Source: Alphaproteobacteria bacterium PA4
GTDB lineage: Bacteria; Pseudomonadota; Alphaproteobacteria; Sphingomonadales; Sphingomonadaceae
DNA: 64,000 nt
Assembly (NCBI GenBank): GCA_002256005.1
Contig: NKIQ01000008.1
Span: 38,459-102,458 of the forward strand
Direction of reading: 5' to 3'
Part shown: piece after piece, positions 25,722 to 38,328 of the stretch
Position numbering within the stretch: position 1 is the stretch's first letter
Layout: every line of letters starts with the position of its first letter
Position numbers and translations under genes: made by a program
The notes under the pieces: model-generated
Seen by the model: only the letters and a program-made list of their open reading frames with translations
What the model was told of the DNA's origin: nothing
Databases searched by the model: none

Positions 25722-25857
25722 CTCCCTCCCCCCCTGCGGGGAGGGCGACTCGGCGCCAGCCGAGCGGGGTGGGGGTTCCCGCCTGTTGCCACCTAAGGCG
25801 TTACCCCCACCCCGCGCGCTTCGCGAGTCGCCCTCCCCGCAAGGGGGAGGGAGTGAA
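25722..25857. repeat. Family A palindromic repeat pair (BIME-like), two units in inverted orientation
   Basis: ctccccccctgcggggagggcgactcggcg..gagcggggtgggggtt followed by acccccaccccgcgcgcttcgcgagtcgccctccccgcaagggggagg. Confidence 0.8.
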
Positions 25858-25962
25858 GATGCCCTCCGTAACCTGTTGCCGCAGCCCGGCGAACAGGTCT
25901 TCACAAATCACGCTGCTGCTTCACATTGGGCGCCACGCAGAAAAGATTTGGGAAGGACGACC

Positions 25963-26328
25963 ATGACGACCCGCGACCTCAGCCCCGCCCAGCATGCCGT
26001 GCTGCGCGAACACGCCACCGAACGGCCGTTCACCAGCCCGCTCAACGATGAAAAGCGCCCCGGCGCATTCCACTGCGCCGGGTGCGGGGCGCTGCTCTAT
26101 GTTTCGGAAACCAAATACAACAGCGGTTCCGGCTGGCCGAGCTTCTACGATGCCGTGCCCGGCGCTGTTGCCACCACTACCGACACCAGCCATGGCATGA
26201 CCCGCACCGAAGTGCATTGCGCGTCGTGCGAGGGCCATCTCGGCCATGTCTTCCCCGATGGCCCGCGCCCGACCGGGCTGCGCCATTGCATCAACGGACT
26301 GGCGCTGGAGTTTGTCGCGAAGGATTGA
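25963..26328 (+). CDS. msrB: Peptide-methionine (R)-S-oxide reductase
   Basis: FHCAGCGALLYVSETKYNSGSGWPSFYDAV, HCASCEGHLGHVFPDGPRPTGLRHCINGLALEF. Confidence 0.95.
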   Translation: MTTRDLSPAQHAVLREHATERPFTSPLNDEKRPGAFHCAGCGALLYVSETKYNSGSGWPSFYDAVPGAVATTTDTSHGMTRTEVHCASCEGHLGHVFPDGPRPTGLRHCINGLALEFVAKD

Positions 26329-26337
26329 GGAGTGAAA

Positions 26338-26463
26338 CTCCCTCCCCCCTGCGGGGAGGGCGACTCACCGAAGGTGAGCGGGGTGGGGGTTACGCCTGTG
26401 GGCACACGAGCAACCCCCACCCCGCTCGCTTCGCGAGTCGCACTCCCCGCAAGGGGGAGGGAG
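26338..26463. repeat. Family A palindromic repeat pair (BIME-like)
   Basis: Same units as 25722-25857, inverted pair between msrB and cysK. Confidence 0.8.
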
Positions 26464-32493: not shown

Positions 32494-33414
32494 ATGATCC
32501 TGCTCGCTGCTCTCCTCGCCGCCGCCACCCCGGCGCTTTCCCCTGGTGATATCGCCGCCGCCGCGCCGGCCAGCGCCTGGCGAGCGGTGGCGCCGGAAAA
32601 TCTGCTGTTCGTCGAAACCCCGCGCGGCACCATGGCGATCGAGCTGGCGCCGGACTTTGCGCCGGCGCACATCGCCGCCATCCGCGCGCTGGTGATGGCC
32701 GGCCGCTTCGATGGCGGCGCCATCACGCGGGTGCAGGACAATTATGTCGTGCAATGGGCGGCGCGGCCGGGGCCGGACAAGGTGCTGACCTCCGGCGGGG
32801 CCGCCGCCGTCGCCGCGGGCAGCACGGCGACGCCGGGCGGTGTGGCGGTCGGCACCGGCCCCGGCGCGCCGCACCCGGCAACATTGCCGGCGGAATATGA
32901 ACGGCCGGCGAAGGGCCTGACGATCACGCCGCTCGGCTCCGTCGATACCTATGCCCCCTCCGGCTTCGCCAAGGGCTGGCCGGTGGCGACGGACAAGCGC
33001 AGCGGCACCGCCTGGCTGGCGCATTGTTATGGCGCGGTCGGCGTCGGCCGCGACAATCCCCCCGATACCGGCGATGGCAGCGAGCTTTACGCCGTCATCG
33101 GCCATGGCCCGCGCCATCTCGATCGCAACATCACCCTTGTCGGCCGGGTCATCGATGGCATCGCCGATTTCTCCGCCCTGCCGCGCGGCACCGGGCCGCT
33201 GGGTTTCTACAAGACGCCGGGCGAACAGACGGGGCTGACCCGCGTGCGCTTCGCCACCGCCGCCGATCCGCGGTTCGAGGTGATGGACACGACGAGCAAG
33301 GCCTTTGCCGCCTATCTTGCCGCGCGCACCAACCGTACCGGCTTCTTCATCCGCCCGGCCGGCGCCACCGACCTGTGCAACGTGCAGGTGCCAGTGCGGC
33401 GGGTGACGCCGTGA
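32494..33414 (+). CDS. Peptidylprolyl isomerase, cyclophilin type, secreted
   Basis: [50 protein letters not shown]...[34 protein letters not shown]. Confidence 0.85.
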
Positions 33415-33716
33415 CGCCTATCGTGAAGCTGTTGCGCGCCGACGAATGGGCGGCGTTCCAGGCCAGCGGCGTCTTCCATGGCTCGCCCGATGATCGGCGC
33501 GACGGCTATATCCACATCTCCGCCCCCGACCAGGTCGCCGCCACCGCCGCCAAATGGTTCGCGGACGCCCCCGGCCTGATGGCGCTGACGCTGGATGCCG
33601 ACGCGCTGGGCGTCGCGCTGCGCTGGGAACCGGCCCGCGGCGGCGTGCTGTTCCCGCACCTCTACCGCCCGCTGCGGCTCGACGAGGTGGTGAGCGCCAC
33701 GGCCTTCAAGCCCTGA
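33411..33716 (+). CDS. DUF952 family protein (full-length copy)
   Basis: VKLLRADEWAAFQASGVFHGSPDDRRDGYIHISAPDQVAATAAKWFADAPGLMALTLDADALGVALRWEPARGGVLFPHLYRPLRLDEVVSATAFKP; GTG start, 4-nt overlap with PPIase gene. Confidence 0.88.
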   Translation: MTPIVKLLRADEWAAFQASGVFHGSPDDRRDGYIHISAPDQVAATAAKWFADAPGLMALTLDADALGVALRWEPARGGVLFPHLYRPLRLDEVVSATAFKP

Positions 33717-33783
33717 CCCCCTCCCTCCCCCCTGCGGGGAGGGCGACTCGCGAAGCGAGCGGGGTGGGGGTTGCGCCTGTCGT
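33717..33783. repeat. Family A palindromic repeat unit
   Basis: ccctccctcccccctgcggggagggcgactcgcgaagcgagcggggtgggggttgcgc. Confidence 0.85.
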
Positions 33784-33853
33784 TATCCGGTAGCAATTTG
33801 ATATTCTGTCTCCAGAATTCCCTCTTGGAAGTGCCAGAAGAGCCTCGATCGCT

Positions 33854-34282
33854 ATGCGAACCGATTGGTGGATCCCGGGTAAAGCCGTTGGCGAATTTAT
33901 ATTTGACGCTTTCCCGTCTGATTCAGGCGCGTTTCAGAAGAGGCACGTCATCGATCTGATCTCCAATGATCTGAACGGAAAAACGAATTATGATGCGATT
34001 GATGGAAGCTATACGTTGATCATGGACGAAGCAGGCATTTCATCTGTCTGTTTTTACAAGGAATTTTTCGTAAACGCGGAAAACATCATAGGCGCTTCGA
34101 CCGAGCATGCACTTGAAGTGATCGGAAAACATCATGCAGATAGATCACTTGTAATTTCGTACGACAATTGGGTCGAAATAGAAGAGAATGTTGTTGTTCG
34201 TGACGTGGATATAGACGAGCTGTGTATTTTTCTTACAGAAAATGATGATGGGAAACTGATCAGCGTCAGTGTCTATGGCTAA
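33854..34282 (+). CDS. Hypothetical 142-aa protein, copy 1 (family not recognised; immunity-like by context only)
   Basis: MRTDWWIPGKAVGEFIFDAFPSDSGAFQKRHVIDLISNDLNGKTNYDAIDGSYTLIMDEAGISSVCFYKEFFVN...; second copy at 35527 with 8/142 residue differences; low GC. Confidence 0.75.
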   Translation: MRTDWWIPGKAVGEFIFDAFPSDSGAFQKRHVIDLISNDLNGKTNYDAIDGSYTLIMDEAGISSVCFYKEFFVNAENIIGASTEHALEVIGKHHADRSLVISYDNWVEIEENVVVRDVDIDELCIFLTENDDGKLISVSVYG

Positions 34283-34497
34283 CTGAGCCGTTGGGAGCGC
34301 TATTGACGGCGCTGCGCTGGGAACCGGCGCGCGGCGGCGCGCTGTTCCCGCACCTCTACCGCCCGCTGCGGCTGGACGAGGTGGTGAGCGCGGTGGCGTT
34401 CGCGGGCTGACGTCCCCAATCCGCTTGACAATTTGATTTGCGCTTCCCAACATTTCCGTAAATTAATGCGCAAGGACATCATTGTCGGGGAACGCAC

Positions 34498-35388
34498 ATG
34501 ATCGGGATGACGACACGGGCATTGACTGCGGTCTTGTTGGCCATCGCCACCGCATCATCTGCCAGCGCCGCCATGGTCACCGTTTCCGCCAATGCCGGCA
34601 ACACCATCGGTGCCGGGCCGTTCACCTCCGGGCCCTACACCAGGCAGCACCAGATCCTGAACACGTTGCCGGTCACGGGCGGCGCGCCGGGCAGCCTGAC
34701 GACCGTCATCAACGGCGTCTCGGTTGTCCAGCCCGGCAGCCCGAACACCCGCTTCGCGGTGGCGGTCGCGGAACCGCAGTCCAGCGCCAGCGCCTATGCC
34801 GATCTGCGCCAGGGCAAGATCGGCGCCTTTGCCGGGTCGACGCCATCGGGTTTTGCCTCGTCGAGCGCCAGCATCGCCGACACGCTCAACTTCACCATCG
34901 CCGGCGCCAATGCCGATACCGTCACCGCCTTGCGGTTTCGCATCAGTCTGCACGCCACCGCGCTCAGTGCCTATGGCCTCATGGGCTTCAGTGGCTATAC
35001 ATGGCTAGGCACGATCGGCAGCGGCAGCCCCTTCAATGTGCAACCGTCGGTGATCGCCCATCAAAGCTGGGTGGAAGGCACCACCCGGTATTTCGACCTG
35101 ACCTATAATCTGCGCGGCGCCAATCCGGTGTTCGGTGCCGGTCTGGTGCTGGAAGCCATCGCCGGCGGCGGCGACACCTCGGACTTTTCCAACACGGCGC
35201 GCCTCCGCGTCCTCGCATCGCCGGGCGTGACCTACACCTCGCAATCCGGCCAGTTCCTCACCGCCGCCGGCGCGGTTCCCGAACCGGCCAGCTGGTCCCT
35301 GCTGATCCTCGGCTTCGGCCTGGTCGGCACCGCCGCGCGCCGCGGGCGGCTGGACGCGGTGGTGAGCGCCACGGCCTTCAAGCCCTGA
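34498..35388 (+). CDS. PEPxxWA-CTERM secreted protein with C-terminal extension derived from the DUF952 tail
   Basis: Signal peptide ...LLAIATASSASAA; VPEPASWSLLILGFGLVGTAARRG then RLDAVVSATAFKP, identical in its last residues to the DUF952 C-terminus. Confidence 0.87.
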   Translation: MIGMTTRALTAVLLAIATASSASAAMVTVSANAGNTIGAGPFTSGPYTRQHQILNTLPVTGGAPGSLTTVINGVSVVQPGSPNTRFAVAVAEPQSSASAYADLRQGKIGAFAGSTPSGFASSSASIADTLNFTIAGANADTVTALRFRISLHATALSAYGLMGFSGYTWLGTIGSGSPFNVQPSVIAHQSWVEGTTRYFDLTYNLRGANPVFGAGLVLEAIAGGGDTSDFSNTARLRVLASPGVTYTSQSGQFLTAAGAVPEPASWSLLILGFGLVGTAARRGRLDAVVSATAFKP

Positions 35389-35390
35389 CC

Positions 35391-35453
35391 CTCCTCCCTC
35401 CCCCCTGCGGGGAGGGCGACTCGCGAAGCGAGCGGGGTGGGGGTTGCGCGTGT
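35391..35453. repeat. Family A palindromic repeat unit
   Basis: cctccctcccccctgcggggagggcgactcgcgaagcgagcggggtgggggttgcgcgtgtc. Confidence 0.85.
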
Positions 35454-35526
35454 CGCTTTCTGGCGGCAACTTGCTATTCCGTCCCCAGAATTCCCTCTTG
35501 GAAGTGCCAGAAGAGCCTCGATCGCT

Positions 35527-35955
35527 ATGCGAACCGATTGGTGGATCCCGGGTAAAGCCGTTGGCGAATTAATGTTTGGCGCTTTCCCGTCTGATTCAGG
35601 CGCATTTCAGAAAAGGCACGTCGTCGATCTGATCTCCAATGATCTGAACGGAAAAAAGAATTATGATGCGATTGATGGAAGCTATACGTTGATCATGGAC
35701 GAAGCAGGCATTTCATCTGTCTGTTTTTACAAGGAATTTTTCGTAAACGCGGAAAACATCATAGGCGCTTCGACCGAGCATGCGCTTGAAGTGATCGGAA
35801 AACATCATGCTAATAGATCACTTGTAATTTCGTACGACAATTGGGTCGAAATAGAAGAGAATGTTGTTGCTCGTGACGTGGATATAGACGAGCTGTGTAT
35901 TTTTCTTACAGAAAATGATGATCGGAAACTGATCAGCGTCAGTGTCTATGGCTAA
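35527..35955 (+). CDS. Hypothetical 142-aa protein, copy 2
   Basis: MRTDWWIPGKAVGELMFGAFPSDSGAFQKRHVVDLISNDLNGKKNYDAIDG...; paralogue of 33854-34282. Confidence 0.75.
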   Translation: MRTDWWIPGKAVGELMFGAFPSDSGAFQKRHVVDLISNDLNGKKNYDAIDGSYTLIMDEAGISSVCFYKEFFVNAENIIGASTEHALEVIGKHHANRSLVISYDNWVEIEENVVARDVDIDELCIFLTENDDRKLISVSVYG

Positions 35956-36083
35956 CTGAGCCGTTCGGAGCGCTATTGACGGCGCTGCGCTGGGAACCGG
36001 CCCGCGGCGGCGCGTTGTTCCCGCACCTCTACCGCCCGCTGCGGCTGGACGAGGTGGTGAGCGCCACGGCCTTCAAGCCCTGA

Positions 36084-36197
36084 CCCCCTCCCTCCCCCCT
36101 GCGGGGAGGGCGACTCGCGCAGCGAGCGGGGTGGGGGTTGCGCGTGTCCCTCTCTGGAAACAACAATTTTGTTTTCTGTCTCCAGAATTGCTCTGGA
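36084..36197 (+). repeat. Unit 3 start, truncated: REP plus leader only, then diverges
   Basis: ccccctccctcccccctgcggggagggcgactcgcgcagcgagcggggtgggggttgcgcgtgtc...ttttgttttctgtctccagaatt matches the units 1 and 2 leader; similarity stops near 36190. Confidence 0.8.
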
Positions 36198-36301
36198 GCC
36201 TACCCCGTGCGTTGTGGAATAAAAAGCCAGAGCTGCTGGCTCTAGGGCGCTACCGACCAGTCATTCGAGTTAAGTATGCTGGTCCCGGAATTCCTGCGGG
36301 C

Positions 36302-36697
36302 CTAAAGCAAACGCTGTTCTAGATTTTTGCAGATTAGATCAATTGTACCACCGTCAACCATTTCGATCGCAACCAACAGATTGCCACAGTATTCTTGAAT
36401 GATCGGTATGCCCAAGGCCCTGGTCTCGTCGTTACTACACTCATAGCCAAACAGCCGAGTCCAGGATCGAAGGGCTTTTTGATCGTCAAGTACGCTGGGT
36501 TCAATCTCCCAAGCACTTAACTCCAACACTCCGACGGGGCTGCGAACGGCGTTCACGTACCATTTCTTTACGCCCTCAAAGGTTTGATGAACCGATTGCC
36601 TCTGGTCTCCCCTGTCAAGGACCATGGTCCAATTGGCGTGTTCAAGAGCCCATGCTACAAGCGTGTGATCATGAAGATCGTTCAGTTCGGAAATCAA
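36302..36697 (-). CDS. Hypothetical protein (131 aa), low-GC orphan
   Basis: MISELNDLHDHTLVAWALEHANWTMVLDRGDQRQSVHQTFEGVKKWYVNAVRSPVGVLELSAWEIEPSVLDDQKALRSW...; protein-like composition. Confidence 0.55.
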   Translation of the reverse strand: MISELNDLHDHTLVAWALEHANWTMVLDRGDQRQSVHQTFEGVKKWYVNAVRSPVGVLELSAWEIEPSVLDDQKALRSWTRLFGYECSNDETRALGIPIIQEYCGNLLVAIEMVDGGTIDLICKNLEQRLL

Positions 36698-36782
36698 TTA
36701 AACCAACTCCTAATTATCGATATCAGACTTGGTCCGTTTAGCTTTGCCGAGAAGCCGAATCTGAACGAATTAAGTGCACTGT

Positions 36783-36987
36783 CGCCGTAATTCTGGCTCC
36801 GACGATGGCGGCGATAACTGGGTAATCATCGCCAGTCTCATCGAGACCGGCAAGCTCAACCACGTCGATCCGCTAGCTTGGCTCGCTGAAACCCTCGAGC
36901 GCCACGCTCGTTGACACTCGAGGCAGAATCTCGATCAGCTCATGCCCTGGAACTTCAATCCCTGAAGGGTCCCGGCACATCGCTTAC
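36783..36987 (+). pseudogene. IS66-family transposase (TnpC) C-terminal remnant plus putative right inverted-repeat end
   Basis: Frame from 36783: RRNSGSDDGGDNWVIIASLIETGKLNHVDPLAWLAETLERHAR*HSRQNLDQLMPWNFNP*, in-frame stop; followed by agggtcccggcacatcgcttac, whose complement begins GTAAGCG as IS66 ends do. Not in the ORF track. Confidence 0.85.
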
Positions 36988-36990
36988 GTT

Positions 36991-37575
36991 TCAATCCTCC
37001 TGCCAAAGCACTTCATATTCATCATTTGAAAACTCGCTTTGTCCCCAATATTGCTGATGCATTTTTATTGCTAAAGTTAGTGGCATATCAGCCCCAGATA
37101 CAAACAATTCGGAACCATCCAAAAGAAGGAATAAAAGCGCAGACACCTCATTTTGCGATAAAGGAGAAGAAAAAGCGGTTATACCAGAAAGTTTTTTACT
37201 TATAAGCAATTTCTTTTGAAATGGCTCGACATGATCTAGAGCAATGAACAATTCTGAATGATTACTCCTGCCAAAAATGTTTGCCACTTCATTTGATATG
37301 ATAATCATTGTTGAGTGAATATCGTTTATTATTAACGCCACCGCGTCGCCTTCTTGGGAAAGGTGCAAGCATATTTCGATATGTGACCCTATTTTTCTAC
37401 AAATAATGTCCCGGTATTTCGAAAATTTAGTAATCGACTGTTCCATGAGGTTCAGGCCCATTTGCTGGAATATGTATTCGTAGTTTCGTGCCAGGCCTAA
37501 GCCGAATGCCACTTCCGCCAATTTGTGATCCAAGCTCCATTCAATCAGCTGGACCTGCAAGTCTACTCCGCCCAT
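36991..37575 (-). CDS. Hypothetical protein (194 aa), low-GC orphan
   Basis: MGGVDLQVQLIEWSLDHKLAEVAFGLGLARNYEYIFQQMGLNLMEQSITKFSKYRDIICRKIGSHIEICLHLSQEGDAVALIINDIH...; AT-rich, abuts the IS66 end. Confidence 0.6.
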   Translation of the reverse strand: MGGVDLQVQLIEWSLDHKLAEVAFGLGLARNYEYIFQQMGLNLMEQSITKFSKYRDIICRKIGSHIEICLHLSQEGDAVALIINDIHSTMIIISNEVANIFGRSNHSELFIALDHVEPFQKKLLISKKLSGITAFSSPLSQNEVSALLFLLLDGSELFVSGADMPLTLAIKMHQQYWGQSEFSNDEYEVLWQED

Positions 37576-37674
37576 CTGTCAGCTTATCATAATCTTTTTA
37601 AAGCATCACTAGTACCTCCCTTGTCAGGGAATTCCGGGGACAGTGTACTCAACGCCCATTTAACTCTGAATGCC

Positions 37675-37732
37675 AACCCCCACCCCGCTCGGCTGGCGCC
37701 GAGTCGCCCTCCCCGCAGCGGGGAGGGAGGGG
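37675..37732. repeat. Family A palindromic repeat unit
   Basis: acccccaccccgctcggctggcgccgagtcgccctccccgcagcggggagggaggg. Confidence 0.85.
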
Positions 37733-37749
37733 GTGGTCCTTGCTGCGGG

Positions 37750-38328
37750 TCAGGCGGCCTGGGCGGCCTTGGCGCGGTGGAAGCCGTCGCGGGTTTGCAG
37801 GCGGGTCCAGAGGGCGCGCAGGTGCGGGCCGACCTGATCGAGATGGCCCAGCGTTTCGGCGAAGAGCAGGGCGTAGCCGACCGAGATGTCGGCGACGGTG
37901 AAGCGGCCGGCGCAGAGCCAGTCGCGGCCGTCGGACAGCGTGGCTTCGGCGAGGGCGGTGCGGGCCAGGAACCATTTCAGATAGTCGGCGGCGACCTTGG
38001 GGTTGCGGTTTTCCGGCTTTTCGAGCGTCAGGTAGCGGAAGACGAGCGTCTGCGGAAAGGTCAGCGTCGCCTCGCCATGGTGCAGCCAGTTGAGCCAGGC
38101 GCCGAAGTCGGCCTCGTCGGGGGCCACGGCCAGCGTGCCGGCGCCGTGCTTCACCGCCAGATATTCGCAGATGGCGGCGCTTTCGGTCATCCTGGCCGGG
38201 CCATCCTCGAAATAGGGGATGGTGCCGAGCGGGTTGGTTGCGAGATAGTCGGGCTGGCGCCAGCGCGGCGGGAAGGGCAGCTTGACGAGGTCATAGGCCA
38301 GCCCCAATTCCTCCAGTGTCCATAGCAC
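37750..38328 (-). CDS. Glutathione S-transferase family protein (N-terminus short or start mis-set)
   Basis: VLWTLEELGLAYDLVKLPFPPRWRQPDYLATNPLGTIPYFEDGPARMTESAAICEYLA; GTG is the first usable start; ARSFR is encoded just upstream in frame. Confidence 0.85.
   Translation of the reverse strand: MLWTLEELGLAYDLVKLPFPPRWRQPDYLATNPLGTIPYFEDGPARMTESAAICEYLAVKHGAGTLAVAPDEADFGAWLNWLHHGEATLTFPQTLVFRYLTLEKPENRNPKVAADYLKWFLARTALAEATLSDGRDWLCAGRFTVADISVGYALLFAETLGHLDQVGPHLRALWTRLQTRDGFHRAKAAQAA

Follow-up and report, generated by a model that had tools for sequence, protein, structure and literature searches.

RAYT-like transposases are widespread, their benefit to the host is unclear, and the literature describes them as enzymes that move their own REPs or TIRs. 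Among the elements closest to the locus described here are the TIRtrons or TIRYTs, RAYT-like Y1/HUH transposases, acting on single-strand DNA, whose TIRs have the consensus GGGGWSAS (Di Nocera et al., 2013, PMC3733652; subclass 2.1 of PMC6006769). The available parts of these two papers do not describe cargo. Passenger genes enclosed by inverted repeats, with no transposase nearby and with movement in trans proposed, are known from the mobile insertion cassettes (MICs; MIC231/IS231 and the qnrD mic, PMC3913671), while the cassette arrays of integrons consist of small ORFs, mostly of unknown function, that are parted by a common recombination site.

The locus between DUF952 and GST

In the window, the whole 64-kb stretch of DNA that was analyzed, the ordinary chromosomal genes DUF952 and GST are separated by several small foreign genes, one after another (Table 1). 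Comparison of synteny shows that the gene order in most congeneric genomes is UvrD - PPIase - DUF952 - GST - DegQ, with a DUF952-GST gap of 14-155 bp. Three congeners (G007, G016, and G011) carry other inserts in this gap. The insert of G011 (L052) is 1.2 kb long and low in GC; where it starts, the 3' end of DUF952 is replaced by a tail version of low GC, and no TIR was noticed within the insert. The ORFs inserted in the window have a GC content of 0.36-0.48, compared with about 0.65-0.70 in the surroundings. The source assembly is a draft of 53 contigs in which errors could be hidden, but the repeat units differ enough from one another to argue against an assembly artefact.

Table 1. Features of the locus, in window coordinates. 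PWM, score of the weight matrix described in the text.
Feature	Coordinates	Strand	Remarks
DUF952 gene, left host flank	33414..33716	+	PF06108, E 1.3e-28
REP copy 1, left half of split REPIN	33716..33771	+	genome-wide family
TIR 1, end of leader	33800..33819	+	PWM 25.8
Cargo X1, 142-aa ORFan, low GC	33854..34282	+	GC 0.45 vs 0.71/0.65 in flanks
DUF952 tail copy, divergent 3' end	34309..34410	+	91/102 vs the gene's own tail
PEPxxWA-CTERM gene, C-terminus fused to DUF952 tail	34498..35388	+	PF07589, E 7.1e-7
42-bp DUF952 tail copy	35347..35388	+	40/42
REP copy 2	35389..35446	+	94.8% to copy 1
TIR 2	35473..35492	+	PWM 19.8
Cargo X2	35527..35955	+	94% protein identity to X1
DUF952 tail copy	35982..36083	+	99/102
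REP copy 3	36084..36140	+	94.7-96.6% to other copies
TIR 3	36170..36189	+	PWM 19.8
TIR 4	36273..36292	+	PWM 26.3
Cargo Y, 131-aa ORFan	36302..36697	-	
TIR 5	36773..36792	+	PWM 19.9
Cargo Z, 194-aa ORFan	36991..37575	-	GC about 0.36-0.44
TIR 6, inverted, array closure	37630..37649	-	PWM 29.3, best in the window
REP copy 4, right half of split REPIN	37674..37734	-	inverted repeat to copies 1-3
GST gene, right host flank	37750..38328	-	PF13417; adjoins DUF952 in most congeners

Sequence alignment recovered every repeat that a preliminary description of the locus had listed. The block at 33675-34410, described there as a repeat of about 736 bp, matches 35347-36083 at 701 of 737 positions (95.1%). 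The last 102 bp of DUF952 (33615-33716) recur twice and the last 42 bp once, and a third unit diverges after its tail, REP, and leader, all as had been claimed; the identities proposed for the DUF952 and PEPxxWA genes also held in profile searches. Full-length tails are 89-97% identical. In the copy at 34309-34410 the first 83 bases are 96% identical to the gene's own tail, and thereafter the 3' end differs. Between units, the REPs are 95-97% alike and the cargo block X is identical at 476 of 489 positions (97.3%), while the leaders are only 71-75% alike. Because the leaders are so much more divergent than the REPs and block X, recent exact copying alone does not explain the three units. A homologue of the PEPxxWA gene in G002 is 52% identical and ends ...SRRRVKPVAA* without the DUF952 tail, indicating that the last ~14 codons of the gene in the window are DUF952 tail sequence.

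The REP belongs to a genome-wide family with 73 matches at E <= 0.001 and is therefore not specific to this locus. Elsewhere in the genome, these REPs form inverted +/- pairs with loops of 18-27 bp. Here, in place of the short loop that marks a REPIN, 3.9 kb separate the + REP at 33716 from the - REP at 37674-37734, and the genes of the array lie in between. Two further REPINs of the same family, at 25722-26463 of the window, are ordinary short-loop pairs. Across the genome's own REPINs (L004-L030) the arms are 76-98% alike, mostly above 85%, and the 18-27 bp loops differ almost everywhere; fast change or exchange of the loops seems likely, and the leaders at the locus vary likewise. An Rfam scan returned nothing above threshold.

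At its end (tctccagaatt), the leader carries a degenerate version of a motif of ~25 bp, AATTAAGTATACTGTCCCCGGAATTC. On the opposite strand, 37630-37642 holds a related string, TGTCCCCGGAATT, which is found once more in the genome, at C14. A weight matrix (PWM) trained on 174 sites, all from other genomes and not all independent, was run over the whole window. Its six best matches (37630-, 36273+, 33800+, 36773+, 36170+, and 35473+) score 19.8-29.3, compared with -6.4 for the seventh and a maximum of 12.2 over 300 shuffles of the region. All six fall at the edges of low-GC cargo, and every cargo edge except the DUF952-tail ends therefore coincides with the motif. The inverted site at 37630- reads CTGTCCCC, i.e., GGGGACAG, and so conforms to GGGGWSAS, while the left TIRs are degenerate and agree with the consensus at about 15 of 20 positions. 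X1 and X2 possess no closing inverted TIR, their right ends being formed by DUF952 tail, and the inverted pair 36273+ to 37630- encloses Y and Z with no transposase nearby. Three of the boundaries (36273+, 36773+, and 37630-), together with the inverted REP, are additions to the preliminary description.

The two copies of X differ by eight nonsynonymous and four synonymous codon differences. Homologues of X were not found in 60 relatives, 401 genomes of the order, plasmids, phages, or viral contigs, nor were any of Z found in the 401 genomes or in plasmids, and searches of Pfam, NCBIfam, PADLOC, and plasmids gave no match for Y. None of the three has a significant Pfam, NCBIfam, or PADLOC match or homology to a toxin or immunity family. 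AlphaFold gave uninformative models for two sequences of X and one of Z, with mean pLDDT of 36 and 43. Conceivably, all three cargo genes could be of the immunity type, since one cassette in another genome comprises an orphan polymorphic-toxin tip and a putative immunity gene.

The motif and its cargo in other genomes

An extended form of the motif, AGTANNNTGTCCCCGGAATT, occurs at scattered sites in 28 of 151 related Sphingomonadales genomes, compared with none for a reversed-pattern control, and the exact 25-mer is present in 94 stretches of GTDB genomes from several phyla. In related genomes the motif borders genes for RAYT-like Y1 transposases and, judged by its sequence, matches the published TIRs of the TIRYT type. 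No paper containing the motif string was found, nor was any on RAYT cargo or cassettes in the limited collection of literature searched.

The motif has a polarity. Where it adjoins a RAYT gene, the transposase lies on the AGTA side in 37 of 38 cases. Among Sphingomonadales TIR pairs 150-3000 bp apart, all five outward-facing pairs (721-748 bp) hold a transposase and all 12 inward-facing pairs hold cargo without one; several of the cassettes were found through containing the motif. At 32 of 39 transposase-free sphingomonad sites (p = 6e-5), the GGAATT side has a lower GC content than the AGTA side, and GC is back up by about +1.2 kb. Outside the Sphingomonadales this step is absent (29/55, p = 0.55), and many of the TIRs found there form short outward dimers that carry no cargo. 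Four short outward dimers (L118, L121, L137, and L164), with 14-16 bp between the TIRs, are REPIN-like miniature elements of the TIR family. The Elusimicrobia pair L118, inside an inverted repeat, was considered as a REPIN case and rejected as a TIR dimer. In Desantisbacteria, Allochromatium, and Omnitrophota (L115, L128, and L136), TIRs stand in rows as direct repeats at spacings of 260-2340 bp, possibly as longer cassette arrays. In G028, a TIRYT gene has beside it at least eight TIR-like copies in tandem (TGTCCCCGGAACT; L102:1912-2098), which are followed by a cargo-like ORF.

No transposase lies in the window, none is intact in the genome, and there is no TIR-flanked Y1/HUH gene such as defines a TIRtron. 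A profile search found no match to PF01797 in this genome, and a model built from ten TIRYT proteins found a single relic with three stops (C14:16637-16900), which ends 18 bp before a TIR heading a 134-aa low-GC ORF. Without an intact transposase in the genome, movement here would be past rather than present.

Sandaracinobacteroides hominis, whose single TIRYT copy is read in two frames, contains at least five TIR-bounded cassettes (L142, L158, L221, L225, and L226), and their cargos have no mutual similarity by blastn or tblastx. Three of them sit in the centre of an inverted repeat. L142 and L158 each have both edges exactly at the midpoint of an inverted repeat that measures 180-205 bp, and L221 is arranged like them with more decayed TIRs; the two inverted repeats that were scored reached 82 and 86, compared with 14 for the 95% point of the null. 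The array of the window within its split REPIN is built on the same plan. The cassettes L160, L180, L190, and L196 lie outside inverted repeats, with scores at the null level, so the REPIN-like target is recurrent and not universal. Inspection of flanks by eye revealed no target-site duplication.

One S. hominis cassette, L225, holds the sole cargo with homology to a toxin family. Its 75-aa ORF matches the very end, on the C-terminal side, of proteins of the filamentous-haemagglutinin type encoded on Burkholderia and Duffyella plasmids (E 2e-7 and 4e-6), and E-values were better still (9e-9) in Mesorhizobium stretches that carry no annotation. A 132-aa ORF follows in the position that the immunity gene has in Burkholderia, and its homology to the Burkholderia neighbor gene is weak (E 0.005). 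The remaining cargos elsewhere are ORFans, putative lipoproteins, DUF4272, or GrpB. Pfam tallies of 92 cargo-side and 63 other-side ORFs fail to separate the sides, and an all-against-all comparison of cargo-side ORFs yielded mostly transposases and one weak shared non-transposase family (L140, L186, and L203).

Origin of the array

Based on the TIRs and their polarity, the foreign cargo, the genus-wide short flank gap, the split REPIN, and the same architecture elsewhere, the region at 33.8-37.65 kb is probably a small array of horizontally acquired, non-autonomous cassettes with TIRs of the TIRYT type. It looks like a fossil cassette array of a kind that these transposases could build by moving genes besides their own. 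A TIRYT acting in trans would have cut out TIR-cargo-TIR segments and inserted them, in some cases at least into the loop of a REPIN able to form a hairpin, and this mobilization by TIRYTs is the main unproven step. At this locus, a TIR-bounded cassette or array would have entered the REPIN loop between DUF952 and GST, and the transposase would afterwards have been lost, leaving the C14 relic alone. Recombination between copies of the DUF952 tail and REP may then have duplicated a [tail-REP-TIR-X] unit; the junction between X and the tail is common to both units and hence predates the duplication. The PEPxxWA gene would have come in later between the tails, as is suggested by the differing 3' end of the preceding tail and by its own C-terminus of DUF952 tail.

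The preliminary description proposed an accumulating array of small cassettes that share a boundary element, and it was right in kind and wrong in boundary. A TIR heads each low-GC cargo and bounds other cargo elsewhere, so that the shared boundary is the end of the leader and not the tail and REP. The tail/REP junction as a recombining boundary was rejected: the REP is the genome's ordinary REPIN repeat, and the tail, a locally duplicated piece of host gene sequence, was never found beside other cargo elsewhere, a test that the TIR passes. The duplicated tail and REP are best read as a later homologous duplication.

The simpler explanation that the same description allowed for, one tandem duplication followed by an insertion, still accounts for the two copies of X and for the PEPxxWA gene. 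Widened to a full history, it would comprise a single acquisition of low-GC DNA, tandem duplication of a 0.74-kb unit, and insertion of the PEPxxWA gene by homologous recombination; the close similarity of the X blocks and of the tails and the shared X-tail junction agree with it. As a complete explanation in which TIRs and REPs are incidental, however, it is quite unlikely, given that the six best TIR matches of the window all stand at cargo edges, that the leaders are so divergent between units, and that the same TIRs bound unrelated cargo elsewhere. Somewhat less improbable, though still unlikely, is that TIRYTs inserted repeatedly beside foreign DNA of other origin and decayed to single TIRs, the cargo never having been mobilized by them. 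The C14 relic directly adjoins both a TIR and cargo, cargo and RAYT genes alternate as cargo-RAYT-cargo in L196 and L160, and the polarity of the TIR places its GGAATT end outside the RAYT element. Yet the inward pairs hold cargo alone, with host DNA or REPIN arms directly outside and in most cases no RAYT remnant or outer TIR, and S. hominis cassettes lie precisely at the centres of inverted repeats. The least credible alternative, and a very unlikely one, is that the 3' end of DUF952 serves as an integration site restored by each incoming element. The four tail copies, the replaced DUF952 3' end beside the G011 insert, and the inserts of G007 and G016 in the same gap speak for such a site, but no integrase is present among the ORFs scanned at the locus, the tail keeps no other cargo company, and the insert edges in the window are TIRs inside a REPIN rather than tails.

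Beyond this locus, it is tentatively proposed, with somewhat less than even confidence, that Y1/HUH transposases of the TIRYT type may run an integron-like traffic of cassettes, including toxin-tip and immunity genes, in which inward TIRs define the cassettes, REPIN loops are possible landing sites, and arrays accumulate. If TIRs also define cassettes, horizontal gene flow would have a route through these enzymes, open also to interbacterial toxin and immunity genes, and insertion into REPIN loops, if true, would link two repeat families. The 25-bp end offers a simple search key.

Comparison with known systems

The locus shares features with several described systems. With the TIRtrons it has in common the GGGGWSAS TIR, which flanks RAYT-like Y1 genes in relatives, but here the TIRs bound transposase-free cargo in the opposite, inward polarity. 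The array lies between the halves of an inverted REP pair like that of a REPIN or BIME, differing in the length and gene content of the loop. Small ORFs separated by a common, recombination-like site also recall integrons; in contrast, no integrase is seen at the locus, and the site that parts the ORFs is a TIRYT TIR, inverted at the closing end. The likeness to the orphan toxin/immunity modules of CDI and Rhs systems (PMC3150448) resides in the haemagglutinin-type C-terminal tip and 132-aa ORF of S. hominis. The known modules lie behind a toxin gene, whereas that of S. hominis is bounded by TIRs, and the cargo of the window has no detectable toxin or immunity homology. The MICs have the ends of other transposases and usually target duplications, while the ends here are of the TIRYT type and no duplication was noticed. 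Overall, the array is best filed as MIC-like, with TIRYT ends and in array form.
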